Shown: one piece after another, positions 19,997 to 60,530 of the stretch | Numbering within the stretch: position 1 is the first letter of the stretch | Layout of the letters: each line of letters begins with the position of its first letter | Notes under the pieces: generated by a model | What the model was told of the DNA's origin: nothing | What the model saw: the letters and a program-made list of their open reading frames with translations, nothing else | The model's database searches: none | Translations under genes and position numbers: made by a program | Assembly: GCA_947396885.1 (NCBI GenBank) | Contig: OX377205.1 | Coordinates: 60,608,969 to 60,672,968, forward strand | Direction: 5' to 3' | DNA: 64,000 nt | Origin: Heligmosomoides polygyrus polygyrus | Taxonomy: Eukaryota > Nematoda > Chromadorea > Rhabditida > Heligmosomidae

Positions 19997-20070
19997 GTAG
20001 TTAAAGAAGCGCTTTGGACTACCGCAACAAGCAATTATTTTTTTGTTTAGATATCTAGTACCTAGCTAGG

Positions 20071-23418: not shown

Positions 23419-23622
23419 CAGGGGCCGGATTCATCAACGACTTACGTAACTTTAACGGAGGATTGTAAGCTTATCAAGCGATATGGTGAACGATAAGCCG
23501 CGTTATCTGAACTTTGAGTAAGCGAAAAGCTCAGATAACTAGGCTTATTGCTCACCATATCGCTTGATAAGCTTACAATTATCCGTTAAAGTTACGTAAT
23601 TCGTTGATGAATCCGGCCCCTG
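23419..23622. mobile_element. Hairpin MITE, 204 bp
   Basis: Two arms of about 90 bp pair almost end to end. CAGGGGCCGGATTCATCAAC opens and its inverse closes at 23622. Inner parts share TAAGCTTATCAAGCGATATG. The centre has GATAAGCCGCGTTATCTGA and its partial inverse. It carries no coding capacity. A shorter relative with the same ends is at 39399-39554, and a single end occurs at 34622-34648. Confidence 0.8.
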
Positions 23623-24023: not shown

Positions 24024-24456
24024 ATGACTTCCGTCTACCTTGGGTCCGGCGGTAGCGGCGGTGGCGGAGCTCAGTCTCAGTACTTTGGCGTACCAGGCAG
24101 TGGCGGTGGTGGAGGTAAATCGACGTCACCTGCGCCGGCAGGAGGAGGAGGAGCAGGAGGAGCCCAGTCAGCGTACTTCGGCGTCGGAGGAGGTGGCGGT
24201 GGAGGAGCCCAATCGGCCTACTTCTCCGTAGGCGGCTCTGGAGGAGCAGGTAAGCTGGATGCGTGATTTGGGCAACTGCGACAAGGAGCGTGTGTGACAA
24301 CGACTTTTGCAGCAGCAGCAGCTCCAGCAGCAGCAGCGCCAGCAGCTGGACGCTCAACGATGACCGCCGTCGGAGCACCCGCTGGCACGTCTACGATGAC
24401 AGCGGTTGGCGCACCGGCTGGCGCCTCCACCATGACAGCGGTAGGAGCACCTGCAG
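24024..24456 (+). CDS. SSQ-like gene, exons 1-2
   Basis: Exon 1 (24024-24249, donor GTAAGC) encodes the Gly-rich head with three Y-F/L-G modules and a [15 protein letters not shown] linker. Exon 2 (24313-24456, after CTTTTGCAG, donor GTATTG) opens with an Ala/Pro run ([14 protein letters not shown]) and then gives three [11 protein letters not shown] units. The 63-nt intron 1 stays open into a KLDA stop, so its retention would yield a short Gly-rich peptide. Confidence 0.8.
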
Positions 24457-27400
24457 GTATTGTTTCACTTCTCGTCCATAGAGCCACCCCTTCGGCTGTT
24501 CAATAATGAGATGTCGTCGACACCACCAGGCTAGGATCCAGAAAATTTACCAACTTTGTCCGAACCTATCCTAGTGGTAGGATGATGCGTGGATTTGTTT
24601 GTTCGACGACAACCGGAAATGTTAGAAGTGAACCATTCTGGAACAACAACGCACTAAAGGCCTGTTCGTGCTCCACGACGAGAGCGACATAGCAAAGCAT
24701 ACGTGTAGAATTGTGCCGAGCTATCGCCTGGGAAAAGGGGGGGGGGAGTGCCACCATTACGTAGCATTCCGTGGCTTGCACGCATGGCCCGCACGCTACA
24801 TAAGCCAATGTCAATGCAGTCTTATCTCCACTTCTCGACTACCGATCCGCCTTCTAGGGAAGAAAAAGGAAAGCAGTAATTGAAGGCCATTTTTCACATG
24901 AATGCTTTAGTTGGCCACACCCTGTCCCTTCCCTCGCCAAATTGTGCGCTATCCGTGTCAACGGCATAGCATTGTTCAGCCGGGCGCAGATAGGGTCGGG
25001 GTGGTCACCCACTACTCAGTGGTTGTACGCCTTGGTAAGAGAGCACGTGTGTGTCCAGTTACATCATAAATGGCGTTCATTGTTGAGGTATTAGGTTGTC
25101 CGAAAATTAATGCAGCTTTTCGACTCCAACTTTAGAGCGAGATTTCTTGGCAAAACTTTACCTTGCAATAGTGTATAATTCTACACTGCTACAAAGCTGG
25201 TTTTACGCGTTTTGTTACTGTTCTACTCCTTTTTAATGTAGAGTACTTCATGGCAGATTCTGTAGTGTATAAATGGACGTGTCAAAGCAGCTATTTCGGC
25301 ACTTTTATTTCTATGAGTTCACTCTCGGTCGTATTTCAGCGGAAACAACTCGCAACATCAGCCAGGAATGGGGCCAAGGAAGTGTGTGTTAAAGGCTCGA
25401 GCACACTTCGCTGCCTTTGCTGCGGCAGCAATGATAAAGGCAGCGAAGTGTGTTCGAGCCTTAACGAATCCGCAGTGATGCGCTGGTTTCAAACACGTCG
25501 TTGAGGTGAACTCGATCTTGAAGATGAGGCAGGTCGTGAACGTCGACAACGAGTTGAAAATCTTGGTGGAAGCAAATACATGTGTAAACGTTCGAGAACT
25601 TGCGAAAGAACTCTTTGTAAGCAGATCAAGTGTTTGGGAACATCTGCGGAAAATTGGAAAGAGGAAGAACTTAGATAAATAGATAGCAGACGAGTTGAGC
25701 GCCCATCAAAAAAATCGTTGGTTCGAAGCGTCGTCAGCGTTACGTCTTCGTAACAAGAATTTTTCCATTTCTCGACCTATCGTAACTTGTGACAAGAGCT
25801 GAATCCTGCATGATTACCGGAGACGATCGGCTCACTGGGTGGACCGCGATGAAGCTCCGCAGCTGTTCCACAACCCGAAATTGCACCAAAAGAAGATCAT
25901 GGTAACTGTTTGGTGGTCTGCTTCTGGATTAATTCACCCCAACTTCTTGAATTCGGACGAAACAATGACGGCAGAGAAGTATGTACGTCTATCGACGAAA
26001 TGCACTAAAAATTCCGATATGCATCCGGCAGTGGTCAACAGAAAAGGAGCGGCCCTTCTCCACGACAAAGCGCGATCACATGTTCCGCTTCCGATGCTGC
26101 ATAGGTTGAATGAGTTGGGCGCCGAAACTCTACCACACCCACCATATTCACCGGAACTTTCTGCCAAGCGACTGCGACTTCTTCATCTGGATAAGTTCCT
26201 GTGCGAGAAATGCTTCAATAACGGAGCCCAGGTGGAAACCGCCTTCGACGAATTCATCAGCTCCAGAACTTCGGAATTCTAGGCAACAGGGACATGTAAG
26301 CAAGTATCTCGTTGGCAAAGAAGTGTAGACTCAAGTGGTTCTTACGTCAATTGATAAAGTTGTGTGTAAGCTGGGATATGTTGTTTTAAAGTTTAAGGTC
26401 CAAAATCTGCATTAATTTCCGGATAACCTAATAGAACACACTATTTCTGCAAAAACAAAAAACCGGTTTCAAAAAGCAAATAGGGCTGAACTGTCAACGA
26501 GGCCACTATTGTACTTTCGGGACTCCAGTGGTCGAGGGGAGGTGAAAAGAATTTCGCCCAAACTTCGCACAGGGGTTATTTGGGGTGCTGATCACGAATC
26601 TGACATCCATTTCTGAAATCTCCGCCGATTACGGTAGGTTACGGTAGGTACCGGTGACTAAGGTCACAGACACCGATTTCGCCCAAACTTCGCCAAGGGG
26701 GGTTGTTTGGGATAATGATCACGAATCTGACATCCATTTTAGTTTTACGCTGGAACATCCCCCCCCCTAGGCACAGATTGGGCGAAATCGGAGATTATGA
26801 TCTCGTCGCCCGTACCTACTGTAACCTATCGTAATCGGCCGAAATTTCAGAAACGGGTGTTAGATTCATGATCAGCACCCCCCAAATAACTCCCTGGGCG
26901 AAGTTTGTGTGAAAATTTTGGCGCAATGGTGGGGGAGGCAGCCTGGGCTTCAACCGCCCTGAGCGTAGCAGGAGGACATAGCCGCATGCACACTCGGCAG
27001 CGGCTGCAGCGGCAGTCGTAATTCAGCAAAAATTCCGCCAAATGGATTCCCGCCAAGTCGATGCCCCTATATTAATCAGGCCTGCTGAGTGTGCATGCGG
27101 CTTATGATGACGTGGAATTTCCCTCATTGCACGCAAAACTGACGCGTAGATACGTATTTTTGTGGGCCGCGGTCCGTTGCTGAAAGTTGCTCGCCCAAAT
27201 CACGATTAGTGACGCCACGGGGAAATACCAGTAACAGTATAGACGGCCAAAACCGCTCCACGAATTACCTCGAACTTGATTAATTAAACTTTTATCAATT
27301 AATTAACACAACAATAATACGAATAACGGAACACAAACATCGGAATGACTGAGATGAACAAAGGCTTCAATGAGTAATGACCTAGCCTTATGTTAAGAAT

Positions 27401-30400
27401 TCTACGATGGTTGCTCCCTTACTAAGGCTAGGCTAAACCCGCTGGTAAATTTAACTATACAAGGGACTAATGGTGAGTGACTTTGCTCCGTCCAGTACAA
27501 CTATGACAAATCCACATGAGAGCAAGTGACGTGGGAATTCAAATGAGTACGTGAGTTTGAGTGATGACACAATCCCAGAACACGACCCGTGGAGCCGCTG
27601 TCGAAACCACTATCGAACTTCCCAGGCGTCGCTTGCTTCGCTTACCGCGCTCCCGCTAGACTACCCGCCACGCTCCTTAGGATTGTCATCGCGCCATGAT
27701 GGGAGTACAACCCTAACGTAAGTAGAGAGAATAACAAGAAATGCACCGAGAGCAGGACGAGCACAGCCGCTGTCGATTATTGGGTGCCCTCGCAGGCGGT
27801 TGCCGAGCTCCCGCCAGATCATGCGCTTCCTTAATGATTGGGTCACGTTAGCAGTCAAAACGAACGGCTCGAAGGCAGCGGCCCTGCCGTCAACGCCGGC
27901 GCGCTCTTTCCAACCGATTGTTCATAGGTCACGCCCTTGGTCAAGCGAGGGGTAAGGTTCAACCGAAGGATTCAAAAGAGGACTGCTTTGCCGACACGTG
28001 TAATGCAAGTTGCAGCGAGAGAGGCCTAAGTCAAACGGTTCGTCACGGGCCAACCAAACGTGTAAAAACTCTTTCACATGTGGAAAATACCGCGTCACCT
28101 CGTACTTGTGTGTGAGTGCTGATGGGCTGCCCCCTCTTCCTTGCATTGCTCCAAAAAAATTTTTCAACCTCTCCTCGACCTCTGGAGTCCCGAAAGTACA
28201 ATAGTGCCCTCGTCCCTTTTTCGTGCCACTTTTTGTAAAGCGACCCACCTCCCCCAACTACCTAGCGCCTGCTTTGCTCTGTCGCTTCCATCGCGGAGTA
28301 TGAACAGGCCCTAAAGTAGTTATCAACATCGCGGTCGGGTAAGCCCTCCTTGTTTGTGCACATTTCGATGTTCTAGCGGCGGCCTTCACCACTAACAAGG
28401 GAAGGGCCTAAAACGTATGTCTGAACGGGAAAGCGAGTCATGACAAGTCATAGAAGCGCGCTGTTAAGTCAGCGTGTCATGAAAGCGAACTGTTAAGAGG
28501 TTAGAAATTTAATGGCCATTCAAACGATGAAGCTTTTTGTCGAAGCATCATGCATAGGATAGGGTAGAGTTTTCGAATCAACAACTTTCTCGATTTTCAT
28601 AAAACGTGTAAAGTTTGATTTAAGAGGTTTCGTTTGATCAGATAGTAAACAAAAAGTAAAAAAGGTTTGGCACGAAAACTTCCCAGCTTGGATTGAATAT
28701 AACACGACAAATGAACAAATATTGGATCATCTTGTATTAGCGTTATCAGAAAAACCTATAAAAACTGAGCTGTATTGCACAACACGTAAGCTCTTGCGAT
28801 TTACGATTTACGACGGATTTTCGTAATTACGCTTTACGATTTGTGAAATTTCGAGTTGCATTTACGCACACTCCTGGACCCATCCCATCGTGTCTTCCCG
28901 TCTTGTTTCTGCGTCTGCCGCTGTGACCCTTGAAGGTAGCCGTCGCGGAGTAGCCACGACCACGGGAGCAACGCTGGAGACGCTGAAGACGCTCACCACA
29001 GCGTAGATCTCCTACTCTCCGTGCTCATTTTACCGCTACAGCTCGTGTGAGTGTTGTGGTCTTGCCTTTTGGCCTTTATATATCAAAAATCTTTTCATCG
29101 CAACCTGTGAACTTGTCCATCTTAGGCGTATGTGCGGGAACTTTCCAGTTTGTTGGCCGAAACGTGTGCCGAGCAAGAAAGCTTTGTGAAATTCTTTCAA
29201 TGAGCAGCCAACAGGGGCATGAATACTATAGAAAATCGCAAAACAAAACAGGAACAAATAAAAGAAGAAAGCAGTGGAAAACGATCGGTGTAGAACAATC
29301 AAGGGCTTGTAACTGCTCTTTCCTTTTGGAGCAAAAGTGAGAAGCGTGTATTTATTCGCCGGTGACGGCGATCACTAGGGATCGAGCGAATGGCTTCGTG
29401 TCGATACAGTATAAACTAGATTTGAGATATGGATGCTAGAGAAGGCATATGCTGTATAAAAACCTTTGGTTTACCAGCACTCACCGCTTCTTTACGAGGT
29501 TAACTTCAGGCGGACGTTCCACAATGACGGCTGTTGGTGCCCCCGCAGGTGCGTCCACAATGACTGCAGTTGGAGCGCCAGCAGGTAATCCTCTGCTATA
29601 GTTTGACCACAAACTAATTCATCCTACATGCTAACAACAGTAATGCATTAGACCAAAACACCATGGTGGGTAGCTTCGTGTCGGATACCATTTAGGTGGT
29701 CATTCAACGATGACTGCAGTTGGCGCACCTGCAGGTGCATCTACGATGACAGCAGTTGGAGCGCCAGCAGGTAATCCTTTACTATGATTGTGCCACAAAA
29801 TATTAGGTTAGTCGGAAAGCCCTGATGGGGTTTCCTTCAAAGTCCAGAACTTCCGACTTTCACTTGATGCCCGTGATCTCCCATGTGCTAGTCGTAGAAC
29901 ATTCTTGAAGCTTCTCTGAGAAGTGTATATAAGCGCGCATGTTCTTCTTTGGGTTTTTGTGCGATGTCAATTTCACAGGAGCATATTCGAGCGATCATCT
30001 TCTGCGAACGGTGCCGTGGCACTGGACCACCGTGGTACTGGTGTCCGCAACATCAACAGCGCATTGGGACAGCACACCACTATCAACACCAACCGTTGGT
30101 TCGCTCGCAAAGAGAGACACGACACGGACGAGCATCCAGCCGCTGCGACGAGACTCGGAAGTTCTCAATCGACGGTAGTCAGCAGCCTCCAAACCCTTGA
30201 CTTAGGCCGATAGCATGGGATTCTCTCGCATATCCATCCGTCAGTCTCTCCTTCTCCACTTGCTTCGTACAGAGTTTTTGAAAAACCTGGTTGCCTGAGA
30301 CGAGAGCTGGTACGACGCACATCGTGTCGCTCGGCTTCTCTAGGAGAAGAGCCACCTACGCAAGCAAGTCAAACGTACATCTCTAGAAGGTTCTTCGCTG

Positions 30401-33400
30401 CTTCTGGGACTCGAAGGGAATGCTGTACTACGAGCTGCTCCATCAGGGCACACGTTCATGGCTGCCATTTACGCCTTCAGATCCAGAAACTCGCTGAAGG
30501 TGTTCGGGAATAGCGACCGAGAGGACCTTTAGACACTTCCTTCGTGAAAACGCGAGATAGCATAGCTAAGCTAAAGAAATTCTCCAAAAATGAAGGCGTC
30601 GGGCTGCGAAACCCTATCCCGTCTGCCATATTCTCCTGAAACACCCCTCAGATTTTCACTTGTTCCGTTACCTAAAAGCTTTCTTGGCAAAGAAAAGTTT
30701 CACAACGTTTAAAGACTTAAATCGCGAGGCCGCCGACTTCTTCGACTTCCGGTCCCCTGGTCTGGGAAAAGGGACCACTGACCTGCCCAGCAGGTAGACA
30801 CCGGGGTGACTAAAAGTGTGATTATGTCGTTGATTGATTTGCATTCCAAACTGAATAATAATAGAAAAACAAAAAAACGTTTTAGCCAATTTAACAATTC
30901 AGTCTATATGTTAGCAACAGTGATGCATTAGATCCAGACAACGTGGTCAGTAGTTTCGTGCCGCATACCATTTAGGTGGACATTCAACGATGACCGCAGT
31001 TGGCGCACCTGCAGGCGCATCTACGATGACGGCGGTTGGAGCGCCAGCAGGTGAGGTTCCACTTCGGAAGGCAGATCCATATAAGGGCACCGCTGAAGCA
31101 AGCGAAGAACAAAAGCACCAAACTGGGTATTCGATGTCGTTTAGGCGGCCACTCCACAATGACGGCTGTTGGTGCTCCCGCGGGTGCATCTACAATGACT
31201 GCTGTTGGAGCGCCGGCAGGTACTCCTCTGATATAATTTTGCCACCAAATGATTCAGCCTACATGCTAACAACAGTGCTGCAACATTCGATCAAAACATG
31301 ACGAGTAGCTTCGTCGCCGATACCATTTAGGTGGTCATTCAACGATGACTGCAGTTGGTGCACCTGCAGCTGCTTCTACTATGACTGCGGTTGGAGCGCC
31401 AGCAGGTTAATCTTTTCAGATATTGATACGCTATGAATCGAACATTACTCAGTAATTGAGAGCAACTCAATATATTTGTGTTTTCAAATAAAAAATCTCA
31501 ACAGATTTTTCATTTGAAAAGTACCAAAACGGACAACATCCTCTGTGAACTTTGCACCGCTCTAACAAACTTACAACGAAAAAAAAAACAATTAGCAAGC
31601 AATAGCAAACAAATAACACTATGGCAGCCACATCGTCGCAAACCCCCTTTGTATCGATGACACGCGCCCAGCAAAAAGTCAATGAATTTCTTCCTTGTCA
31701 ACTGAGAGATTTTCCTCCATTCTTCCACGACTTACCTGGACTTCTCTAGATTGTCGGCACTGTTCCTAACCAAATGTCGCGCTAGCTCGTTCCATAGGGG
31801 TTCAATGAGATTCAGGTCAGGTGGCCTTCTTAGCCACTCCATTAGGGGCACCTGGTTGTGTAGGAACCTTATCCTCTAGAGTTTGAGTAGTCCATTCATA
31901 GTTTTGAGGCACAAGCTTATCCCGTTCACTGAGTCTTGTGCGTTTGCCCTCAGACTTTCCCTGAGCAAGAGGATTTTCTCCATAATGTCAAGCCCCTTAC
32001 TCTCGCAGGGTCTCGAAAATTGCTCAGAACTCCGAGAAATCCTCAACGTCGCCGTAAAATTTCGGTAACGTCGTTTGGGAAGGTTCCATTGAACGACATC
32101 GTCGTGTCTCACTTCCACTTACATTATCGGCAATCGAATCCAACAGTGCTTGAGAGATATTAGTGTTCGCAGTTTCAGTCGGCTCAGTTTGATTAGCCTC
32201 ATCTCCCTGCGGACCAGTACCGCACGCGTTCTGCAGTATTGAGGCTCTCTGTGAGATGTACCCTAGTTTTATGCTCATCGTGTCTCTCACGCACTTGGAT
32301 TCCTCACGACGTGTAGTAGTTCATGAGCTAATTTGTCCGCACTAGCTAGCTCTTTATGCAGCTGTGAGTCATCTTCTATTTGCTCAATTTCTAGCATTAT
32401 GTCCTTTTTATCAGTCTTATTTTTACAATTTTTGTACTCTTCTCGAACATGTTGATAGAGCTTTTCGAGTTTCCCTTTTCCCTCTTTTACATGCTTTATA
32501 CCGCTTTGCAAAAGTGCAGTAGTAGACTTACATTTACTGTGTACTTTGTATACGTTACCACAAGGTCTCTCAGCGTTGACGCGCTGCTCATGATGGAGGT
32601 TCTGTGGAAGTCCACCGCCATTTTATGGGGACTTCTCGTGGGCCTCTTTGAACTTAAGAGATACTACTCCTGATGTTTTGGGCAGTGGGACTACTTTCGG
32701 TGATGAAAGGTTTATAGTGCTACACGGAAATTTGCTCCTCGTAATGAATACGAGTCTTGCAGTCTCTCAATTAGAAGCTGTGGTCGTAATTGGACCAACT
32801 CAAGGAGTGAACCGAGAGTAATTCTCTTAATTTGAGATTGAGATCAAAGTTGTGATCGACTTGCCTTCTAGGTGTTCTACTCGGGAGGTTTACGATTCCC
32901 TTTAGTCTAGAGAGTGCGATCTGCATAGGTCGACTTGTGACTCAGGCGATGTACGCGGAGACTTACAGTACGGCTTATTAGGCCGATACACCAAAATATA
33001 CCCGTTGTACGGATAGCGGGAGCGGAAGAGATAGGAAAATGTTGGAGTAACGCGTTTCTTTTTCTGCACACAATTCAGGATGGTTCAGTGACTAATCATC
33101 GTACCATATATAATATTTATGTATAATGAGCAGGAGAGGGAGATACGACTATTCGTCACAACCATGTGGGAGAAGTCTAGCATACGCCGCTATCTTCTGG
33201 CCATGGTGACCTATCCCGACCACGTGCAGTGGACGGCTCAAGCGCTCCGCCCACTTCTGCGGCGTTGCCGCTGCCCTATCCTTAACCATAGCGGCGAGCG
33301 GCGTTGCCGCAGAAGTGTGTGGGGGCCTTAATCCCTCTTCTGGTAGAGGCATCGTCGTCGCCGACGACAGTGTTGTAACCACTCGCGCAGTACAGAGGCA

Positions 33401-48400: not shown

Positions 48401-51400
48401 TTTAGTAAACGCTTCCTACTTTGGTTAGGACTTCCTAACCTGTAAACCGCGACAGGATGACATTCAATGTTCAAGTGATCAAGAATATTCAAAACACTGT
48501 TAAAGTCATAACTTCTACGATGACGCAGGGATAGGTGAGACAGTTCAGGCACATTGCCAATAATGACAGAACGAAGCCGTTCCTTCTCACAACAATCCGA
48601 CTTGTTCAGGGGTGGCACATCAGGCTGAGAGAGCAACGAGGAGGTAGAAACACTTTTAGTTTCTAATCTTCTAAGCTTTTCCTTTAGCATATAATTCTCT
48701 TTCCGAAGTTCCGGAATGATCTTATTCTCTTGGCGGAGAATGGCATTTTCCTTCATCAAGCAACTTAGCTGCACCGTAATCTGTGCGAGTAACTTCTTGA
48801 GACACGACGGAATTGACTGCGTTTCGTTGACCTCGTCGATCGTCTCCAAGAGTTCACGTGGAAACACCGCATCAAGCTGGCCATCCATTTTAACCTCAAA
48901 AATACGCCCAAGAAAACCGAGTACGCTAAGACGACCGAAATCAACTCGACCTCAACCTCTCAAAGTGGCAATTAGGAATGAACACCGGAATTTGTCCGCT
49001 TGCCACTAGGAACAACACAGAAATCTATCAGGGGTCCGTCGACAGCTCCGCAGTGCTGGACACAGAGTCTTGCCCGTCCTCAGAATACCATAGAAGAGCC
49101 GAATACCAAAAGATGACGATGGAAGACGACTCCGGTCGAAAATATAGCAGAATAGTGGAGAGGATCGATGAGGTGGGCACACAGCGAACGTCCACCCGAC
49201 CGCTCATGACGGGTGCAGGGACTTACGTTCTCATTTTGAAGGCTATTTCCGCCTCCAAAATAACACAACGTATTTCCCACAGCAGGTCCTCGTAGTTTTG
49301 TGCCTCAATGTTCCTCAACGTCCGTGTGCGACCTGACAAATGATCTTTAGCAGGGCTCCTTCCCTCAATTAGTACAGAGATACATGTGACTGCAACAAGC
49401 AACAGTCCATCACTATGAGCAAAATCAAGTGGCATCGTTGGCGAATCCATTTATCTGTAGCTGTATAAGCGGACCGCAAAGAGCGATCTGTATGTATGTT
49501 TACTACATGGATTCATGCAGAAAAATGCCTGAGTGACGAGAACGTAACACAACACATCAACTCTAAAAGTTCTCGAAGTAATACTCAAATCGGAAACTAC
49601 AACAAGAAAAAATGGGCAATTAAGTGGTAGAACCTAACGAGTTTGCCGAAAAATGAGAGCTGACATCTTTCACTTGTTATTTAATCTTACAGATAGCTAT
49701 CCAGCTGCTTCATTAACGTACAATGCATTATGCAACCTGCTGCGTTTTGCTGAATTTACCCAATTCTGTGCCTTCTCTGTCTACGAAGAAAACATTCCTT
49801 ATGTTTTTCTTGGCCTTGGTTACAAACACCATTAAAGTGGATACCCATGTGCGTGACGGCATTAAGGCAAATAGCTCACTGGCTTCTGTCGGTCAGTATA
49901 TGATTTCGTATAACATTAAAGGCACCCGCAGACTTCTGCGGCGAGCGGCGACGGCGAACGGCGAAACCGCTGAGCGGCTTGACTCATCATCAGTGGGAGC
50001 GGTGACGGCGAGGTACTGTACTGTTTCTAGTTCGGGACCGACTGGTGCTTAACAATAACGCGCCCCGATGACGATCGCGTCCGTCTCCGCTCTGGATCCC
50101 GCCGCGAAAGAGCAGAGCGCAGAGCGCAGACAGACAGACGCTGGAGCGGCGCCGCCGGGTGGAATGATTCAAGTCATTTCCGCCAGCGACGCCGCCGGCG
50201 CCGCCGGTGCCGCTGGCGGCGAGCTCTGCGTCCCTGCCCTATGGTTAAGCATAGGGCAGCGGCAACGCCGCAGAAGTCTTCGTGGCCTTAAGAGGTCATT
50301 CTTCATTCTTCTCTTGGCTTAAAATTGGAGTCCAAAATTGATATTTCTCGTCGTATCATCACCTGGGATTAGTTCGCATGCAAACTCTAGAGATCTAATC
50401 ATAGGATTCAAACCAGGGGTGATCGTTGAACGGTTAGCGAGTTAACATTTTTTAACGGAATAACGGCACTTTCCGTTGAAATCTGGCTTAACGAAATAGC
50501 GGAATTTTTCAAAAGTTTAACGAAATTTTAACGGATATATTCGGAAATTTGCATTGAATTGAAGATCCACCGACAGTTCTGCTGTTCTCAATCCAGCAAA
50601 ACATGAATGGAAGTTTTTAGGGAAAAATTCCGATAAAATAGAAAACGCTGCCCAAAAGGAGCATGAAATAAGGCGCTCTTGAATGGAAGCCCAAAATCTG
50701 TCGAGGTGCCATTTTTCATGCTTCACCATTCGCATCTTGAGCTTGCTCGAGAGCACTCACATATTTCGATGAGTTCAAGGATCTGAGGAGGAAGAGAAAG
50801 GGATCTTGGCCAAATTTAGGAGATCACGTCAAACATGACACCCTTGAAATCGTCCAAAGCCCTCTAGATCTAACTGAACACTCTAAGAAGACTGAAACAG
50901 ATCTTCGATCTTCCAAATTTACACAGACTTTGCCAGAAAATTTATAATTGAACTGACTCAAGAAGTGGTTACAGCGAAATGCTATGAATTTTCTATTTAA
51001 AATTGCACTATGTGAGGTTATTCCAGTATGCGAGAAATCAGCAGGTTTTCAGTTCATTACGAAAAGTGCTCCATGCACTCGTCTTCGGCTTTCATTTGAT
51101 TGATAGTGAAAATGCTGCTTACGTCAAGCCGCAAAGTGAAGATACATCCATTTCCTACAATGTGTCTGGCGCTGACCAGTGGGTAACCGTACGCTAACAA
51201 TTTTAGCTATGAATAAAATGAACGCCGCATCAAGACCAATGCATGGCGCGATCTCTTATTAAAGCATATAGATCTTGGAGTCGTGGAGTGGCGAGAGTCA
51301 TCTCTGTCTATAGGAGACGACGTGCTTACGACAAGTAGAAGTTTCGCATGCTTAATCATTTCTCTCTCCAGTGAATTTCACATGCGATGGACGTCGTCTA

Positions 51401-54400
51401 TTAGATTGCCTATTAGGAAGTGCACAATTTTCTGATTTTTGCACTTTCTAATAGGTTTAAAACAGTTTTTCTGGCACAAAGAACAAAATAGTTTATGACA
51501 GTTCAGACACTGTTAAAGGGTATGTGGTATGTTGGAAGCGCATGACAAGTTTTGGAGCAAATTTCAAATTACAAAATCAAAAAAGCATAGTCAATCTATT
51601 TCTGAGGCAGCGTCGCTTCTGTCCACATGCACCAATCAGCCGTTCATTGCCAGACTTACCGTTGATATAGTCTCCTGATGAGAGGAAGTCTCATGCCTAG
51701 AATCTGGAATATATGTCTTCGTGGTGATGGAACGTGGCGATACGTAATTACGTTGGGAAATCGAGCAGGCTCGTTTCGTACAAGCGGCGCTTTGTGGAAA
51801 ACTGTCTCCATGTTCTTGAACGTGGCGTCAATTTTCCACAATTTTCCAATGGAGTCGAGCTCTCCTTGCATCTGTAGACAGGGGGGGGGGGCTGCAACCA
51901 CATAGCACAGCTAGCAATAAGCAAACTCGTTCAACATTGAGCATGATATGCAATAGCGTGCAAAGGTTTGTGAACGCTTGCATTTTTTGCCAGAACTTGC
52001 TTCCAATCAGCTTTAAAAATGTGAACTTTGGACATATTTATGACAACTAACAATCTTATACCGCATCATCGCTGCGGTCCTATATAGGTCCTTTCCATAT
52101 TTCAAGCATAAAAACGAAGAAACCGTGAAATCTGCCACATTAGTTACTGCGCTTCAGCAGCCTTCTTTATTGTCAAAGTCGGACAAGTTATATTCTGAAG
52201 CAATGTAGCTTTATTAGTAGCGAGTAGCAAAACCTTTTGGTTTATGAGCTGTCATAACGATGTTTTGTTGCGATCAAAACTTCTAGCGCCAGGCGGGACT
52301 CGAACCCGCACCTCTCTCTAACCGGGAGGAATGCTCTACGCCATTACATCACCGGCGTCGTTTGGTCGAATTGATATCACCAGCCAGCTCATTCCGGATA
52401 CGGGTGAGTGCTGATCTGTCCCACGAGGTGTGGATGTTGCGTTCGACCTTTTGAACCTATTGGTTTAATTACAGCCTCATATCTCCTCGGCGTGGACTCT
52501 AGAAATTTCTTGATCACGTTGGCTTCTACATCTTCTCATTTTTGCCTTAACTGTTCAAACTTTCGGCCTTGTTTCTTGCTGCGGGACTTGCTAAACTTCT
52601 AGATAGTTTGCTAAAGACCACAGTATGTGACGATACTATATTGGCTTCATAAGAAAATGTATTGATAAATACACTCCATGCTTTAGCAGATCCCCCCTTT
52701 GACCGTTGCGGAATATACTGACCTTGCACTTGCAAAAAATTGACAATAAGGAACGTAGCTCAAGGCGTCGTTGTTGCGATCTAATTTCCTACCACATGTC
52801 CCAATTTCACTCCGCTTGGACTTTTTAAGGGGTTATGACTGAAAATGCAAGCGTTCACTAACTTTTGCACGCCTGCATTAGGTTGTCCGGAAAGTTCTCA
52901 GCGTTTTATGTTACTATTTTTCATTCGCCTATTATTAAGTAAAAATCCAACTTGCATTGCGCATTAATGCTGCTCTCTGTGCAGAACTTTTCGCGGTATC
53001 TGGCTAAATAGTTTGTTTCAACGTTGTTTTATATTTCTGTCCTTGAAGGAGTTACTGAAGTATGTCAAAAGAGTAATTCCGAACGACATTTTATTTTAAC
53101 TTCAGATTGGGACAGTCCACAGCCGAGGTAGCTCAACAAATCAATTAACTGTGGGACCTAATAGTGTTAGGGAAAGCACCGTGCGCCAGTGGTTCAGTAC
53201 ATTTCGGACCGGAGAATTCAGCCTCGAGGACGACCCCCGCAGCGGTCAAGCTAAAGCAATCGTGGACGATGAGTTAAAGGAATTGGTGGAAGCCGAACCA
53301 TCCCAAACAGTTCGCTGAATCGCGGAAGAGCTAGACGTCGGTAAAACTGCTGTTGCGGATGCTTTGAAACGCCTTGGGAATGTGGAAAAAAAAAGTTCGA
53401 AGAGTGGACCCACGAGTTGAGTGAGTGACAGAAATGATCACGGTTCGAGATTTGTTCTGATCTACTTTACGCAGCAAAACTGACCCGTTTTAAGATCGAA
53501 TCATCACTTGTGATGGAAAGTGGATCACGCATTATAGCAAGAAAGGAGTGGCTCGACGCCGACGAACCTCTAGATTCAAATCAGTTTCATTAAGCCTCAA
53601 GTGGCTGGTATCGAGGTTGTGAGCTGTCATAACGATGTTTTGTTGCGATCAAAACTTCTAGCGCCAGGCGGGACTCGAACCCGCACCTCCCTCTAACCGG
53701 GCGGGAATGCTCTACGCCATTACACCACCGGCGCCGTTTGATCGAACGCAACATCCACACCTCGTGGGACCGATCAGCACCCACCCGCTACCTCTAGATA
53801 TTTTCCAAAGGCGAACCTCCTCCAAAAAAGCTGATGCTCACTGCGTGGTGGTCGGCGGCTGGTGTGATCCATTACAACTTTTTGGCACCAAGCCAAACGA
53901 TCACATCAGAGCCCTGCTATGAGGAAATCGACGAAATGCACCGAAAATTGCGTCAACTTCTGCCAGCATGTCAGAAGAGGCTCGATTCCTTTGCACGATA
54001 ATGCCCGACCACACGTTTCACAAATCACTTTTCGAAAATTGACCGAATTAAAAGCTGAAGTTCTGCCTGCTGTCGAATCTCGATTACCAATTTTTTCGCT
54101 GATGGAATAGGTCGAGTGGTATCCCGTAGGCAAAAGTGTGCTGATTCGAACGGTGCTTAGTTCGACTAAACCCGATAAGATTTGGGTAAGTTATGGTAGT
54201 TCAAAGTGAATCACTCAAAGCGCTGAGAAGTTTCCGGACAACCTTATAAATACTCGACTCCCAGTACGACTGTATCCATGCTTGAGTGACCTATTCGAAT
54301 GCTGTACGAATGATTTTCACTGGAATCCGAGTATCCGAGATCTTTTTTTTACAGTGCATTCGGTTTCGAGCGCTCAAAAATTTTACGTTTTGAAAGTCTT

Positions 54401-56914
54401 GAACCGTTTGAAGATTTGGAAACTTCCTGAGAGCGTGGCTATTGAATCGAAGCCCTGCCGAATGTGCTCCTACTGCTTTATTTATTTATTTGCACGTTCA
54501 TGGACACACAATTATGAGCAATACAACGTGGTGAGAAAGAAAAAACAAGAAACCCCAGCGATCCAAATAAAATGTGATGTACTAAATTCATATTTGCAAG
54601 ACGGAGGAATTTTGCTGAAAAAAGGAGCTGTGAAATATTGTGATGTAGGCAAACATTAAGGGCTATTGGTCTAGTTCGTACTGGTGAAGAAGAGAGTGGC
54701 GCGCCAGATACTGAACGTCGCGATTGAAAACGGCTCCAGATACCAGCCTACTAGGTCCGTTGACTCCATCAGCCACGTGACATCTGTTGCATGAAGAAGA
54801 AAGAAGGCGGGGTTTCTCAGTGCTAGACAGGAGGCTGTACAGAACTGCCGTGGAATGTATACGAAATAGCAACAATGGTGAGCAAGAACAACATGGCCTG
54901 ATGAGCGTTAGAAACGCACATTGGGCATGGAGAAAAAGAGTAAGGACACAATTACACACTAGAGCAAAACATTCATTTATATGAAATTAAGGCACTTCAG
55001 AACTCTGGTCAAAGGCGAAGGAGTTTATACAGATTGTACTTGCGTACCACGAATTTTAGGTCTCACGTATCGCTTGTCAACGGTCCTTGCCTTGATTGTT
55101 CTATAGTTCAAAATGTGGTACGGACGCGGGGGGGGGGGGGGGGCGACTGAGGAGGATATTCACAGTGAACTCGTGCTCGAAGGCCAATAGCGCAGTAAAT
55201 GCCTTAGAGACTTGAGGAAGCGATTACCCGTGAAACAACGAGTGAGTAGAAGAAGGTGCTAAAATGGTCTCACATTAGGCAACAATTCCTCGTCAGCGCA
55301 GCTATAAAGCATCGTCTCTCAAGACCACTACTCCCAGCCTCTTGCTCGGGCAGCTTTCGCGATCCTCGCTAATTCCACGCCTCCGCTGAAGCAGCTTTCG
55401 TGGTTTTCCGCCTTGTTTGTGGCAGATGCATGCGGCCCCGCGACCTAGTAGAATTTTTGGAGACTTCCAGCTTGCCTAGCCTGATGCTCCTCGAAACGAG
55501 AACATGACTAACACCTTCGCGACGGTGTCCATTCATATGAGTGGACAGTGGAGAGGGCACGATGAACGGTGTCCGCTCATTTGAGTAGACGGAGGAGTTT
55601 TTGGGAAGATCTCTCTTTATTGATGTTCTTGTTCAGTTTTCTCCTCAAATTCGCAAATTATAGTAATAAATCAGTGTTGGGTATGCGTAGGCAGAGAAAT
55701 GACTCGCTTTTTCTCGTAACTAACAAGGCAAGAACTTTTCCCATCACTGAAAGCGCATATACTTCTGTGTAGACGAGAATTTATGCACAAACTTCTGATG
55801 AAACATGAATTGAACACTTAGATGAAACGACCTAAGCTCTGACTGATGACAATAAACAAACATTCAACAGGAACACTTCCTAGACTCACTGCCCAGGAGC
55901 ACTATTCCGTTCGATGTTCTTAAGCTTAACTTGAAAGCTTCGGCTTTCAAGAAAATTAAATAATTTATTGTTTAGCCTAAAGGTCTCGCATTTATTGCAT
56001 ACGCATTTGTAGGATTTTAGGTGGCCGATCGACAATGACTGCTGTTGGTGCCCCCGCGGGTGCATCTACTATGACCGCAGTTGGCGCACCCGCAGGTAAT
56101 CGTTTGGCCTCAACTACGAGGAAAGCTTTTGCCCTTCATTCAAGAAGGCAAAGTATTGCTAGTTAGAAGCGTGCGATTCTCAATTCTCTTCCTCACCTTG
56201 TTTTAGGAGGTCGCTCAACAATGACTGCAGTTGGCGCTCCCGCTGGCGCCTCGACCATGACTGCCGTTGGAGCTCCCGCAGGTATTCCTTTGTCTCTCTT
56301 GAGGTTTAGGAGAACGTGCACTGCGTATGCGAGAAGACTGAGAAGTTTCTTTCAAACATGGTCAACGATCAGCTAACTGCGAAGCTAGTTGTAGGTGGTC
56401 GCTCAACCATGACAGCAGTTGGCGCTCCCGCTGGCGGAACAGGCACATCTACAATGACTGCAGTCGGCGCCCCGGCCGGTGGAACAGGTGCGTCTGCTGC
56501 TGCTGTAGTTGGTGCCCCCCGGGTGCAACTTTGCTCGCCTGCCTCCCTAGCTGCGGGCGAAGTTCCAGCTCGAGAGGGGAGAAGGATTGGATGAGAGCTA
56601 TACGGGCTGTTTCAGGAGCCTCGACCATGACCGCTGTCGGAGCCGCAGCAGGTGGAGCCGCCCACCCAGCCGCGGGAGGAGGCGGTGGCGCAGGCGGAGG
56701 CGGCGCTCAGTCCGCGTACTTCGGCGTCGGCGGCGGCGGCGGCGGAGGCGCGCAGTCCGCGTACTTCGGCGTCGGCGGAGGCGGCGGCGGCGGGGTGAAG
56801 GCCACTTCGCCGAAGCCGGCCGCCGGCGGTGTCGCTGGACAGTCCGCGTACTTCGGCGTAGGTGCTGGTGGTGCAGCTGGTGGTGCTCAGTCAGCGTACT
56901 TTGCCCCCAAATAA
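24024..56914 (+). CDS. SSQ-like (sperm-specific class Q) repeat protein
   Basis: Thirteen exons join in one frame: 24024-24249, 24313-24456, 29510-29584, 29696-29770, 30976-31050, 31145-31219, 31331-31405, 43595-43666, 43781-43894, 56021-56095, 56207-56281, 56395-56487, 56616-56914 (stop TAA). The total is 1473 nt, 490 residues. All introns are GT-AG and phase 1, splitting a Gly or Ala codon; every internal exon is a multiple of three. The N-terminus reads [15 protein letters not shown] with AQSQYFGV and AQSAYFGV modules, the middle has 25 TMTAVGA repeats spaced by PAGAS or PMAS, and the C-terminus has AQSAYFGV modules and ends AYFAPK. There is no signal peptide or membrane segment. It resembles nematode SSQ sperm proteins from memory; biochemical function is unknown. 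Introns 2, 7 and 9 (5.1, 12.2 and 12.1 kb) hold most of the transposons described here. Confidence 0.8.
24457..25090. other. Start of intron 2, no feature
   Basis: Intronic spacer with a GGGGGGGGG run near 24738. No exon with the repeat grammar was found here. Confidence 0.5.
25091..26431 (+). mobile_element. mariner element with both TIRs
   Basis: Left end TTAGGTTGTCCGAAAATTAA and right end inverse TTAGGTTATCCGGAAATTAA, with TA on each side (25089-25090 and 26432-26433). Transposase pieces: the N-terminal helix-turn-helix region with [19 protein letters not shown], then the [20 protein letters not shown] block with [12 protein letters not shown]. The region of [10 protein letters not shown] holds the second catalytic box and PHPPYSPEL follows. 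There are several stops and frame breaks. Without the 72-bp hairpin insertion it is about 1.27 kb, the normal mariner length. Lies in intron 2. Confidence 0.9.
25389..25464. mobile_element. TTAA-flanked hairpin MITE, 68 bp
   Basis: Inserted in the mariner transposase. Arms AGGCTCGAGCACACTTCGCT and its inverse pair over about 26 bp with one mismatch, around a short loop. TTAA stands at both ends (25389-25392, 25461-25464). Removing it restores the GSVNESAV reading of the host mariner. TTAA duplication is typical of piggyBac-type transposition. Confidence 0.8.
26498..28213. mobile_element. Foldback element with nested inverted repeats
   Basis: The outer ends CACTATTGTACTTTCGGGAC at about 26504 and its inverse near 28190 share about 45 bp, including GTCGAGG(G/A)GAGGT. 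Inside, 26540-26650 pairs with 26810-26935 (ATTTGGGGTGCTGATCA, CCGATTACG..AGGTTAC). A further pair is GCCGCATGCACACTC at 26982 and its inverse at 27086. No transposase recognised. Non-autonomous and in intron 2. Confidence 0.55.
28214..29509. other. End of intron 2; repeat fragment at 28394-28450
   Basis: 28394-28450 (AACAAGGGAAGGGCCTAAAA, GAACGGGAAAGCGAGTCATG) matches the outer arm of the 13041-14600 element. The rest has short chance frames only. Confidence 0.45.
29510..31405 (+). CDS. SSQ-like gene, exons 3-7
   Basis: Five exons of exactly 75 nt, each encoding GG(R/H)[11 protein letters not shown] plus [12 protein letters not shown]. Acceptors are TTCAG or TTTAG; donors are GTAATC, GTAATC, GTGAGG, GTACTC and GTTAAT (the last is weak). 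Introns 3 and 6 (111 nt each) are visibly homologous, sharing CTACATGCTAACAACAGT and GATACCATTTAG. Exon 7 has AAAS in place of AGAS. This cluster arose by tandem duplication of exon-intron cassettes. Confidence 0.8.
29802..30897 (+). mobile_element. mariner relic interrupting intron 4
   Basis: Begins TTAGGTTAGTCGGAAAGCCC, a mariner terminus. Pieces in order are [25 protein letters not shown] from the DNA-binding half, a decayed middle, and the C-terminal [20 protein letters not shown] followed by NREAADFFD. No frame is intact. Sequence on either side (29771-29801 and 30898-30975) matches the two halves of the 111-nt introns 3 and 6. The insertion therefore split an intron of that type and lengthened it to 1205 nt without touching the splice sites. 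Confidence 0.8.
31660..31875 (-). mobile_element. Tc1-type transposase C-terminal fragment
   Basis: The minus strand reads [20 protein letters not shown], the Tc1 family's DLNPIE box with the third catalytic acid, then [20 protein letters not shown], the family's C-terminal helix, broken by one stop. The first two catalytic residues are not present. Directly followed by the gag-like fragment on the same strand. Confidence 0.7.
31876..32640 (-). mobile_element. BEL/Pao-type gag fragment
   Basis: Minus-strand pieces: [12 protein letters not shown] near 32600, a Lys/Glu-rich coiled coil with [19 protein letters not shown], then [14 protein letters not shown], and after a frame break [20 protein letters not shown]. 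The order and the L-P-K-F-x-G-D and MEK-LLL-ESLR motifs fit the DUF1759-type capsid region of nematode BEL/Pao LTR retrotransposons. No protease, RT or LTRs nearby. Broken fragment in intron 7. Confidence 0.65.
32641..33249. other. Intron 7 spacer, no feature
   Basis: Short frames only; no exon, terminal repeat or motif supported. Confidence 0.4.
33250..33331. mobile_element. TTAA-type hairpin MITE fragment
   Basis: CACTTCTGCGGCGTTGCCGC pairs with the inverse GCGGCGTTGCCGCAGAAGTG across an 18-base loop. The right end is GGGGGCCTTAA. Shares CTTCTGCGGC..GCCGC and CCTATGGTTAA-like motifs with 49916-50291. Confidence 0.5.
33332..34686. other. Intron 7 spacer with RTE and MITE end scraps
   Basis: 34588-34620 (GTTTGGCCCGCCTCGTAGCG) resembles the 3' end of the RTE copies at 41393 and 61683. 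34622-34648 is a single end of the 23419 MITE family. Otherwise nothing supported. Confidence 0.4.
35240..36301 (+). CDS. RTE endonuclease-domain ORF
   Basis: The longest intact frame of the RTE at 34687-38003. The apurinic-type endonuclease fold spans about residues 25-270; the rest is the linker before RT, with a Lys/Arg-rich [13 protein letters not shown] segment. In the family this domain nicks target DNA for reverse transcription. VFNAKIGP replaces the usual GDFNAKIG, and DRNLL-type end motifs are weak, so activity is doubtful. The frame stops before the RT. Confidence 0.75.
   Translation: MGRTSTKRLLKSQGLTRLRKLSTRMTICTYNARTLASEAYVEDLMTQARKIKYDVIGLTENRRHNPLHAAYDPEEELFLGTSDSRGVGGIGVLVNTHLAMNIDSYESLTSRIGRLRLKRCGSVPALAVFVAYAPPSDYGDEDVEAFYAELEKFYEEDHTFYKVIVGVFNAKIGPRRSPGELHIETHGLEWNEQGERLSEFIMSTKTIHGNSQFQKPPSLRWTWEFLFGQFHNEIDHIIFNRKYCLIAVSVAPKFYTGSEHLFLRARFRFSRQGEKAAKFKKRNRRTAINWGLYTSLANLWKDGVIGNVDRFVYHLHDSAKGGESLKTTKRRLSSETLELIASVEQHESQATTS
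36554..37490 (+). pseudogene. RTE reverse transcriptase, frameshifted
   Basis: Two frames, 36554-37063 and 37128-37490, carry RT fingers and palm as listed for the parent element. The palm's catalytic pair reads FADV instead of YADD or FADD. A loss of about one third of the palm between the frames is also likely, since the usual LDLKAFD-type aspartate is not evident. Confidence 0.75.
38004..39398. other. AT-rich spacer in intron 7
   Basis: 38220-38380 is a run of TTAAATTAAA-like repeats. 38876-38935 (CTGTCAGTCGAATGAAAACC, CATGGCGCATTTTC) is a scrap of the TTGATAGT MITE family. No gene seen. Confidence 0.5.
39399..39554. mobile_element. MITE, relative of the 23419 hairpin
   Basis: Ends CAGGGGCCGAATTCACCAAC and the inverse of CTGGTGTCGGATTCATCAAC. 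Interior GAGCGATAAGCCGCGTTATC is shared with 23419-23622. 156 bp, non-coding. Confidence 0.65.
39561..39714. mobile_element. TTGATAGT MITE, copy 1
   Basis: CGATTTTTATTCGATTGATA on the left pairs loosely with TATCAGTCGTATAAAAG on the right. About 154 bp. Followed by GGGTGCATGGCGCGAAGTC, a segment also seen after the other copies. Confidence 0.55.
39715..40206. other. Intron 7 spacer, no feature
   Basis: AT-rich, no open frame or repeat that I can support. Confidence 0.4.
40207..40940 (-). mobile_element. Internally deleted Tc1-like element
   Basis: Perfect ends CAGGGTGCGTAAAAAGTATT and its inverse at 40921-40940, flanked by TA at 40205-40206 and 40941-40942. Minus-strand remnants include a [19 protein letters not shown] block, the PLDYS-W box of a Tc1/mariner lineage, with stops. 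At 734 bp it lacks roughly half a transposase. Confidence 0.8.
41050..41196. mobile_element. TTGATAGT MITE, copy 2
   Basis: Perfect 14-bp terminal repeats GTTGCGATTTTTAT at 41050 and inverse ending at 41196, plus the diverged GATTGATAGT and CTATCAGTC sub-terminal pair. 147 bp, non-coding. Followed by GGGCATGGCGCAATC. Confidence 0.7.
41393..42945 (-). mobile_element. RTE LINE, 5'-truncated and internally deleted
   Basis: Minus-strand RT pieces: [74 protein letters not shown] (YADD kept) and [15 protein letters not shown]. The tail ends in ATGATGATG. Compared with the copy at 61683-64000, about 130 bp are missing around 41674. The 5' part, including the endonuclease, is absent. A Gly to Glu change sits in the QGSALSPLLF box. 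Confidence 0.85.
42946..43594. other. End of intron 7, no feature
   Basis: No repeat or exon seen before exon 8 at 43595. Confidence 0.4.
43595..43894 (+). CDS. SSQ-like gene, exons 8-9
   Basis: Exon 8 (72 nt) and exon 9 (114 nt) carry the variant linker [12 protein letters not shown], with Met replacing AG. Exon 9 has a third repeat introduced by PAGGAAS. A 114-nt intron separates them. Flanked by the two 12-kb introns. Confidence 0.8.
44276..44680 (+). CDS. Unrecognised ORF in intron 9
   Basis: 134 codons, hydrophilic, with [20 protein letters not shown] then [20 protein letters not shown] (Cys/His-rich, suggestive of metal binding). No acceptor fits its start, no family is recognised, and it lies inside an SSQ-like intron. 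It may be a transposon remnant or chance. Confidence 0.2.
   Translation: MPDELRALKNSTWIAGQVCTHTRYTRDHESWFIKKMGIEGSHFCYSLVLEVVASVDLQSSYDIIGCKACEAVNLTANVHKEHHKIKHDIAALVVCGDRRMHEAVVVYADVLELEHEKQTSAVGPLLPKSRPERQ
45226..49250 (-). mobile_element. CR1-like LINE, near full length
   Basis: Ordered on the minus strand: 5' region, ORF1 (48148-48888), endonuclease (about 47292-48110), RT (45290-47241), then a hexamer tail (ATAGTA)n at 45226-45252, the short 3' tandem repeat typical of CR1. Endonuclease motifs: [51 protein letters not shown] and [13 protein letters not shown] motifs: [57 protein letters not shown] and [10 protein letters not shown]. Several stops and shifts occur in ORF2. Lies in intron 9, antisense to the host gene. 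Confidence 0.85.
48148..48888 (-). CDS. CR1-like LINE ORF1 protein
   Basis: 246 codons uninterrupted. An N-terminal leucine-rich coiled coil (about residues 30-95: [20 protein letters not shown] then [14 protein letters not shown]) is followed by a nucleic-acid-binding-like domain with [24 protein letters not shown] and [12 protein letters not shown]. The C-terminal tail is Arg-rich, then Ser-rich. In LINEs, ORF1 proteins trimerise through the coil and coat the RNA. The start ATG follows an AGGTTAAA context. It is the only intact frame of this element. Confidence 0.75.
   Translation of the reverse strand: MDGQLDAVFPRELLETIDEVNETQSIPSCLKKLLAQITVQLSCLMKENAILRQENKIIPELRKENYMLKEKLRRLETKSVSTSSLLSQPDVPPLNKSDCCEKERLRSVIIGNVPELSHLSLRHRRSYDFNSVLNILDHLNIECHPVAVYRLGSPNQSRKRLLKVVLPSSLYQKLAVRRSLWLRRFPGKGLFLRESQTVQERLRRRERNSHVSSSSQGVSYAKSAPHCSQAESENISNVPSVEPSLN
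49251..49915. other. Intron 9 spacer, no feature
   Basis: May include the extreme 5' end of the CR1-like element, whose boundary I cannot fix. No exon seen. Confidence 0.35.
49916..50291. mobile_element. TTAA-flanked hairpin MITE, 376 bp
   Basis: TTAA at 49916 and 50288. Ends AAGGCACCCGCAGACTTCTG and inverse CGCAGAAGTCTTCGTGGCCTT pair. The GC-rich interior has GCGGCGAGCGGCGACGGCGA and its partial inverses. A shorter relative is at 33250-33331. Non-coding despite open frames. Confidence 0.7.
50292..51080. other. Intron 9 spacer; TTAACGGAA-rich stretch
   Basis: 50425-50535 repeats TTAACGGAAT/TTAACGAAAT motifs several times, resembling the start of another short palindromic array. Otherwise no feature. 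Confidence 0.35.
51081..51260. mobile_element. TTGATAGT MITE, copy 3 (decayed)
   Basis: TTTCATTTGATTGATAGTGA on the left, ATGCATGGCGCGATCTCTTA to the right. Similar to 39561 and 41050 but the right terminal repeat is not clear. Confidence 0.45.
51261..52237. other. Intron 9 spacer, no feature
   Basis: An inverted pair ATTAGGAAGTGCACAATTTTCT and TTTGCACTTTCTAATAG occurs at 51411-51461. No exon or element otherwise. Confidence 0.35.
52238..52470 (-). repeat. tRNA-derived repeat, copy 1
   Basis: Minus-strand 52285-52358 has a tRNA-like core with the T arm GCGGGTTCGAGTCCCGC (5-bp stem, 7-nt loop) and acceptor halves ACGCCGG/CTGGCGC, mismatched at the first pair. The D arm and a 7-nt anticodon loop cannot be drawn, so it is not a working tRNA. 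It shares flanks with copy 2, but the tail CACGAGGTGTGGATGTTGCG is inverted here. Confidence 0.6.
52878..54246 (+). mobile_element. mariner relic carrying a tRNA-derived repeat
   Basis: Left end TTAGGTTGTCCGGAAAGTTC; right end inverse TAAGGTTGTCCGGAAACTTC, with TA at 54247-54248. Transposase pieces: [58 protein letters not shown], then after the insertion [20 protein letters not shown] and [13 protein letters not shown]. Multiple stops and shifts. The insertion near 53580-53810 splits the transposase. Closely related to the copy at 1894-2805. Confidence 0.85.
53615..53805 (-). repeat. tRNA-derived repeat, copy 2
   Basis: The tRNA-like core at 53660-53734 (75 nt, minus) has a fully pairing acceptor GCGCCGG/CTGGCGC with one wobble, a perfect T arm, and a TGGTGTAATGGC box A-like segment. 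The anticodon region TTCCCGCCCGGTTAGAGGGA gives an 11-nt loop and the D stem is poor. I call it tRNA-derived, not a functional tRNA. Flanks GAGCTGTCATAACGATGTTT are shared with copy 1. Confidence 0.6.
54283..54440 (+). repeat. TTCGAA-rich element, copy 4 (degraded)
   Basis: Left end CATGCTTGAGTGACCTATTC matches copy 1. The right end CTTCCTGAGAGCGTGGCTAT corresponds to GCGAGAGCATAAGTATA. The tandem core has been lost. Confidence 0.5.
54441..56020. other. End of intron 9; 16-nt G run
   Basis: 55128-55143 is an uninterrupted run of 16 G. Random short frames elsewhere. No further exon with the TMTAVG grammar was found. Confidence 0.5.
56021..56914 (+). CDS. SSQ-like gene, exons 10-13
   Basis: Exons 10 and 11 are standard 75-nt units. 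Exon 12 (56395-56487) has the linker [10 protein letters not shown] and a GTGCGT donor. Exon 13 (56616-56914, after GGCTGTTTCAG) has the last TMTAVGA unit, an Ala/Gly-rich bridge, two [15 protein letters not shown] units, a [11 protein letters not shown] linker like that of exon 1, and the AYFAPK end. If intron 12 is retained, the frame stays open to a stop at 56592. Confidence 0.8.
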
Positions 56915-60179: not shown

Positions 60180-60530
60180 GATCCCATTACTGGTCGCACC
60201 CTCACTGGTCCCCTTTTATTCGTCAACCCTTTTTAGGTTCCCCCTCCATTGGACCCCTCCCTTCACCGGTCCCCATTACTGGTCCCTTCCTCATCGCTCC
60301 CCCCCCCCCCTTCACATGGTCCCCTTCACTGGTCAACCTTCTACCGGTCCACACTTCACTGGACCCCTCCCCTCCCCTTCACTCGTCTCCATTACTGGTC
60401 CCTTCCTGATCGCCCCCCCCCCCTTCACATTGTCCTCCTTCACTGGTCCCTTCCTCACCGGTTCCCTTCACTGGACCTCCCCCCATCCTTCACCGGTCCA
60501 CCACTACTGGTCCACGTTCACTGGTAACAT
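60180..60530 (+). repeat. CT-rich TTCACTGGTCCC minisatellite
   Basis: Irregular array of TTCACTGGTCCC, TTCACCGGTCC and CATTACTGGTCCC units with runs of C. Frames read as Pro/Ser/Leu/His repeats and are not genes. Confidence 0.75.

Follow-up and report, generated by a model that had tools for sequence, protein, structure and literature searches.

A 13-exon gene on the plus strand of Heligmosomoides polygyrus polygyrus contig OX377205.1 holds one 490-residue frame across 33 kb, and this frame is under strong purifying selection, i.e. the gene is intact and selectively maintained. Taking gene, type, and origin jointly, we consider it likely that the gene is functional, single-copy, and of the nematode SSQ type (sperm-specific family, class Q), and that it has grown by duplication of exon units. 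Positions refer throughout to the window, i.e. the whole stretch of 64,000 nucleotides that was analyzed.

Rebuilt from its splice sites, the gene model consists of 13 exons, from 24024-24249 through 56616-56914. When joined, these make up 1,473 nt including the stop codon and translate into 490 residues, with a single terminal stop and 25 copies of TMTAVGA. The original prediction had given the same numbers of exons, residues, and motifs. The exons, the longer introns, and one candidate relic are as follows.

24024..24249, plus strand: exon 1, with the start codon, glycine-rich, carrying three (A)QS(A/Q)YF(G/S)V motifs
24313..24456, plus strand: exon 2, 144 nt, with a poly-Ala/Pro stretch and three TMTAVGA motifs
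24457..29509, plus strand: intron 2, 5,053 nt, with a mariner-type transposase piece inside
29510..29584, plus strand: exon 3, 75 nt, two motifs
29696..29770, plus strand: exon 4, 75 nt, two motifs
29771..30975, plus strand: intron 4, 1,205 nt, with an insert of ~1.1 kb of unclassified type
30976..31050, plus strand: exon 5, 75 nt, two motifs
31145..31219, plus strand: exon 6, 75 nt, two motifs
31331..31405, plus strand: exon 7, 75 nt, two motifs
31406..43594, plus strand: intron 7, 12,189 nt, with LINE pieces on both strands
43595..43666, plus strand: exon 8, 72 nt, two motifs
43781..43894, plus strand: exon 9, 114 nt, three motifs
43895..56020, plus strand: intron 9, 12,126 nt, with weak LINE-like pieces on the minus strand
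56021..56095, plus strand: exon 10, 75 nt, two motifs
56207..56281, plus strand: exon 11, 75 nt, two motifs
56395..56487, plus strand: exon 12, 93 nt, two motifs
56487..56519, plus strand: candidate decayed motif, 11 residues in frame at the start of intron 12
56616..56914, plus strand: exon 13, with one motif, a glycine-rich QSAYFGV part, and the stop codon

Every intron (12 of 12) is in phase 1 and every internal exon (11 of 11) has a length that is a multiple of three, as had been claimed; the internal exons measure 72-144 nt and are exactly 75 nt long in 7 of 11 cases. Donors read CAG|GT and acceptors end in YAG at every one of the 12 introns, whose lengths are, from first to last, 63, 5053, 111, 1205, 94, 111, 12189, 114, 12126, 111, 113, and 128 nt. 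The further claim, that any subset of internal exons can be removed in frame, holds as arithmetic: enumeration of the subsets of the 11 internal exons keeps the frame with one terminal stop in 2,048 of 2,048. Reading on from the upstream exons into an intron meets an in-frame stop in 11 of the 12 introns, the sole exception being intron 5, where the 94-nt length would shift the frame. An AATAAA signal starts 14 nt past the end of the stop codon.

Upstream of the ATG lie a GATA site (at 84 nt) and a TATTTAA (at 53 nt), which would fit a sperm promoter. As a sperm-promoter signal the GATA site was rejected, given a chance expectation of 0.48 WGATAR per 300 nt.

Introns 2-11 each interrupt a Gly codon preceded by Ala, at the CAG|GT with which the exon's last motif block ends, while intron 12 falls between Thr and Gly and intron 1 within an Ala codon. 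With the intron site placed at this Gly codon, duplications stay in frame and large intron insertions are therefore tolerated. The history of such duplications is preserved in the introns themselves. Intron 3 shares 78% identity with intron 6 and 80% with the final 80 nt of intron 4, and shuffle z-scores among these three sequences reach 15.1, 9.8, and 8.7. The block formed by exon 3, intron 3, and exon 4 matches that of exon 6, intron 6, and exon 7 at 84.6% over 280 bp (29505-29780 vs 31140-31416), and the block around exon 5 aligns with exons 4 and 7, each with its preceding intron. Both ends of intron 4 resemble the 111-nt introns and are separated by ~1.1 kb (the likeness of its start was judged by eye, z 2.9 vs intron 6). 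As judged from these alignments, the exon 3-7 region expanded through tandem duplication of a ~186-bp unit (a 75-nt two-motif exon plus a 111-nt intron), this growth included the copying of a two-exon block (3-4 and 6-7), and one ~111-nt intron, now intron 4, was later split by ~1.1 kb of inserted DNA. At 22%, the divergence between introns 3 and 6 is similar in size to that at synonymous sites of the exon pairs beside them (0.35 for 3-6 and 0.22 for 4-7), so silent sites look roughly neutral.

For exons 8-12, we infer the same tandem-duplication origin. The short introns of that part are near-equal in length (114, 111, and 113 nt for introns 8, 10, and 11) and do not detectably resemble intron 3 or intron 6; among the 25 best pairs listed, 6-11 is the sole one to link the two groups (z 1.4). 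At the start of intron 12, the candidate decayed motif matches at 23 of 33 nt, more than any other among 62,079 plus-strand places scored outside exons (next best 22/33). This in-frame stretch of 11 residues is at most a plausible relic, perhaps a motif that has dropped out of the mRNA.

Pairwise comparison of the 25 STMTAVGA blocks reveals no difference at codon position 1 (0/2,400) or position 2 (0/2,400), against 1,434 of 2,400 (60%) at position 3. A six-frame scan of the window that allows up to four mismatches to STMTAVGAP finds 24 perfect copies and one copy with a single mismatch, all in exons, none with two or three mismatches, and six with four, all outside exons. Because nothing is found at two or three mismatches, the conservation is not an artefact of choosing perfect matches; five mononucleotide shuffles of the window gave, in total, 23 copies with four mismatches and one with three. 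Among the seven 75-nt exons (3, 4, 5, 6, 7, 10, and 11; 21 pairs), pS is 0.557 and pN 0.018, a count that leaves out exons 2, 8, 9, and 12, which differ in length. As pN is low in all of the compared exons, this suggests that all of them are probably used.

Similarity among the exons also ends where coding ends. In exons 3 and 8-12 the first 25 bases average 0.79 identity vs 0.26 in the preceding intron, and the last 25 bases average 0.68 (in imperfect register, the exons differing in length) vs 0.29 in the following intron, i.e. identity drops to chance level at the splice sites. By these substitution patterns, the DNA copies are not homogenized and the peptide is under selection. We argue that each motif copy matters, because 25 of them are unchanged despite the third-position differences.

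Could the symmetric exons serve regulated skipping, so that alternative splicing of a real SSQ-type gene varies the number of repeats per protein? Every exon subset does remain in frame, and 3 of the 8 AG|GT sites inside exons coincide with a boundary between motifs (in exons 3, 4, and 9), where they read CAG|GT in phase 1 without an intron and are possible alternative donors. Exon symmetry is nevertheless no evidence for skipping, because it follows automatically from duplicating one phase-1 unit, and the seven compared 75-nt exons are all strongly constrained, as expected if all are used. We therefore regard regulated skipping as unlikely, and in the favored reading, a functional SSQ-type gene grown by exon-unit duplication, the exons would be spliced constitutively.

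The search for further copies covered the 656 Mb assembly (1,130 contigs), in which pattern counts may be lower bounds. The TMTAVG(A) pattern has 25 exact matches, all in exons of the gene described here (reversed control 1), and the four matches of the QSAYFGV pattern are confined to exons 1 and 13. The protein of exon 13 matches only exon 13 itself and two stretches of exon 1. A TMTAVGG pattern has its sole assembly match in a collagen-like tail (G000:C39:106975188) containing a single TMTAVGGGA. No second copy of the gene was found in the assembly with either repeat pattern, and the gene appears to be single-copy since both patterns match only this gene, apart from the one collagen-like near-match; a strongly diverged paralogue may exist, the counts possibly being lower bounds. 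SSQ proteins occur in nematodes, and the genome fits in this respect because it holds 2,235 exact copies (1,197 forward, 1,038 reverse; reversed control 0) of the SL1 leader.

Relatives were sought with a 218-residue query, using words from its TMTAVG part; 8,000 candidates were scored and five reach E <= 0.01. The lowest E is that of a Panagrolaimus davidi protein (A0A914PEK6, P0001; E 2e-21) with STMTAVGG(A)P repeats, followed by Cooperia oncophora COOONC_26745 (P0002; E 1.6e-9), which has both repeat types. Two Caenorhabditis nigoni predictions (P0003 and P0005; E 4.5e-5 and 4.2e-3) carry STMTAVGG(A)P repeats, and an ENA sequence of 124 aa (P0004; E 4.1e-3) carries TMTAVGG repeats. Two other searches, one with the full 490-residue model and one in which only residues 124-175 were scored, returned nothing at E <= 0.001 among 8,000 candidates; our guess is that glycine- and alanine-rich proteins crowded the candidates and that length limits played a part. 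Motif pattern scans elsewhere gave 1 match in a prokaryote collection and 11 in a viral one, which carry no evidential weight.

The Cooperia protein shares the TMTAVGA repeats and a near-identical C-terminus, where 25 of 27 aligned columns are identical in a local alignment with the window (tail score 159 vs a maximum of 108 in 200 shuffles). This likeness points to a strongylid as the probable source of the window. It is a prediction of only 176 residues from a 6,327-base contig, and is probably incomplete or may be mispredicted. The YFGV motif is absent from the given sequences of the other four relatives (P0001, P0003, P0004, and P0005), which have the TMTAVG type only. The Panagrolaimus and C. 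nigoni predictions share their repeats with the gene but differ in flanking sequence and may be mispredicted; in the former, the N-terminus is unlike that of the gene and contains acidic residues. Between the two C. nigoni predictions, the sequence that follows the repeats in P0003 is similar to that preceding them in P0005 (score 64, with 0/1,000 shuffles as high), and two other spacer comparisons are weak (9/1,000 and 150/1,000 shuffles as high). Duplicated repeat-plus-spacer units could thus exist in Caenorhabditis too, a lead against the uniqueness of the present architecture. By eye, the TMTAVGG repeats of P0004 are broken by a non-repeat stretch resembling an unspliced short intron at the repeat-boundary glycine. 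This stretch may mean that another nematode has introns at the corresponding position.

C. elegans SSQ proteins are glycine-rich, with QSAYFGV and STMTAVG repeats, and both repeat types are present in the window and in one of the five relatives (P0002). By motif, the gene is thus probably of the nematode SSQ type. The name rests on these motifs together with published SSQ expression and a lungworm transcript table. Named members of the C. elegans family include ssq-1, ssq-2, and ssq-4 (PMC3683130), spermatocytes contain ssq-1 mRNA (PMC4878318), and SSQ-1 is described as highly expressed in sperm with a largely elusive function (PMC10909979). Abundant transcription of strongylid relatives is indicated by a table in PMC2131760, in which counts fall from top to bottom and row 9 is a Dictyocaulus viviparus contig with similarity to ssq-2 of C. 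elegans (142/237). Of the original claim of an SSQ-like gene, the intact exon-modular structure stands and a Cooperia relative with both repeat types has been added to it; the SSQ link itself is probable.

A different assignment would make this a nematode-specific low-complexity repeat gene not orthologous to SSQ, its motifs being common to unrelated glycine-rich proteins. Consistent with this, four of the five relatives have the TMTAVG repeat alone, the Panagrolaimus protein departs at its N-terminus, which has acidic residues, and SSQ likeness was judged by motifs. Against it stand the Cooperia relative, with both repeat types and its C-terminal identity, and the restriction of both repeat types to one gene in the assembly. 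The original prediction had named homologues lacking both repeat types as evidence against itself, and Cooperia oncophora has both, the other four having one. We hold the non-SSQ assignment to be improbable and retain the SSQ type.

The predicted product has 490 residues and a mass of 41.8 kDa, and is basic (pI 10.4, calculated charge ~+10). It contains 130 G, 127 A, 57 T, and 41 S, and lacks C, D, E, I, N, and W. It is repetitive and, by its composition, probably largely disordered; the disorder is a guess because the mean hydropathy is positive (+0.35), unlike that of most disordered proteins. A Protein Data Bank search with a 76-residue repeat piece gave no match at E up to 1, and a Pfam search with the 490-residue model, also at E up to 1, gave no family, the MSP domain (PF00635) included. 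An MSP domain protein, including SSP class P, was rejected as a candidate on that result. One account describes ssp, ssq, ssr, and sss products as MSP-like in structure and acting in MSP polymerization (PMC3343087); for the present product the absence of a Pfam match does not support this.

If the gene is of the SSQ type, it would be transcribed in spermatocytes, and the QSAYFGV ends and 25-fold TMTAVGA core of its product would offer weak binding sites many times over. That the product serves as a scaffold or structural component of the sperm cytoplasm is a tentative suggestion, SSQ-1 function being called largely elusive (PMC10909979). As the 8-residue motif is unchanged in 25 copies, STMTAVGAP offers a minimal peptide for binding tests.

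The original description of the locus as 33 kb of transposons is broadly right, in that mariner and LINE pieces lie in introns 2, 7, and 9 (5.1, 12.2, and 12.1 kb). The transposon scan covered 20 reading frames among the 200 stop-to-stop frames of >=80 codons in the window. Intron 2 contains a mariner-type transposase piece at 25803-26279 (plus strand; E 1.7e-20, above the Pfam cut-off). In intron 7, LINE pieces at 35042-37487 (plus strand) include a reverse transcriptase stretch at 36858-37487 above the Pfam cut-off, with an endonuclease and another reverse transcriptase piece below it, and a LINE reverse transcriptase at 41718-42527 (minus strand; E 2.6e-25) is above the cut-off. Intron 9 has endonuclease, reverse transcriptase, and leucine-zipper matches at 45279-48951 (minus strand), all below the cut-off.

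Other repeats are scattered in and around the gene. A LINE-type reverse transcriptase element has two copies, at 41673-42944 (minus strand), inside intron 7, and at 62086-63353 (minus strand), 89% identical over 1,276 bp. Intron 9 has, at 53660-53734 (minus strand), a match of 38 bits to the Rfam tRNA family, and the 130-bp stretch that contains it is repeated at 52242-52370, ~1.4 kb away, with 94.6% identity; this is possibly a tRNA-derived short element. Upstream of the gene are arrays of 41-bp TTCGAA-like-rich units (1142-1322, 2827-3038, 8881-9309, and 11554-11788) and another mariner-type transposase piece (2084-2551, minus strand). Near-perfect self-inverse stretches (87-88%) at 19867-20200 and 23419-23622, the second ~400 bp upstream of the start codon, are probably foldback elements. 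At 60254-61124, ~3 kb downstream of the gene, tandem arrays with periods of 42, 83, 116, 167, and 250 bp overlap.

Three introns longer than 5 kb that carry transposon pieces could mean that the locus is two or more genes, or a broken one, with exons 1-2 and 10-13 as separate transcripts and the middle clusters as relics. The middle exons, however, all have intact motifs (pN 0.018 vs pS 0.56 over the seven 75-nt exons), no exon contains a stop or a frameshift, exons 3-12 are flanked on both sides by phase-1 acceptors and donors, and the start codon and stop are confined to the outer clusters, so we consider such a split very improbable. A non-coding satellite that is open by accident, which the tandem, partly ~186-bp-periodic units might recall, is virtually untenable, being contradicted by differences among the 25 motifs at third codon positions only and by identity that stops at splice sites, and having no other copies in the genome. 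The likely account is one SSQ-type gene grown by exon-unit duplication, a readable case of protein growth by the copying of symmetric exons within a transposon-rich gene.

The C. elegans ssq genes are small, intron-poor, and several per genome. Here, by contrast, there is one gene with 12 introns and 25 motifs over 33 kb, which nevertheless shares with the SSQ proteins of that species a nematode origin and apparently the QSAYFGV and STMTAVG repeats. The difference does not exclude SSQ membership, as a small, intron-poor, multi-gene organization characterizes the C. elegans members without defining the family. The locus is a test case for whether exon copies can stand in for gene copies and vice versa. 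It is conceivable, if quite unlikely, that this one gene replaces several C. elegans ssq genes by exon multiplication, with exon copy number and combinatorial in-frame skipping in spermatocytes setting the number of repeats; if so, a ladder of sperm proteins with 1 to 25 TMTAVGA motifs would result.

The original prediction knew of no exon-modular expansion in the SSQ family. In agreement, no exon-modular SSQ gene appears among the titles and abstracts listed, in several cases the first of a longer list and largely without subscription journals, which is weak evidence of novelty; a literature search for the motif strings gave nothing relevant. The exon-modular architecture looks new within the SSQ family, while its kind is known in other repeat proteins. 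The genes of tropoelastin and of the PEVK part of titin have many small symmetric phase-1 exons that can be copied or skipped in frame. With no kinship of sequence claimed, the gene described here is like these vertebrate or muscle structural proteins in its symmetric phase-1 repeat exons.
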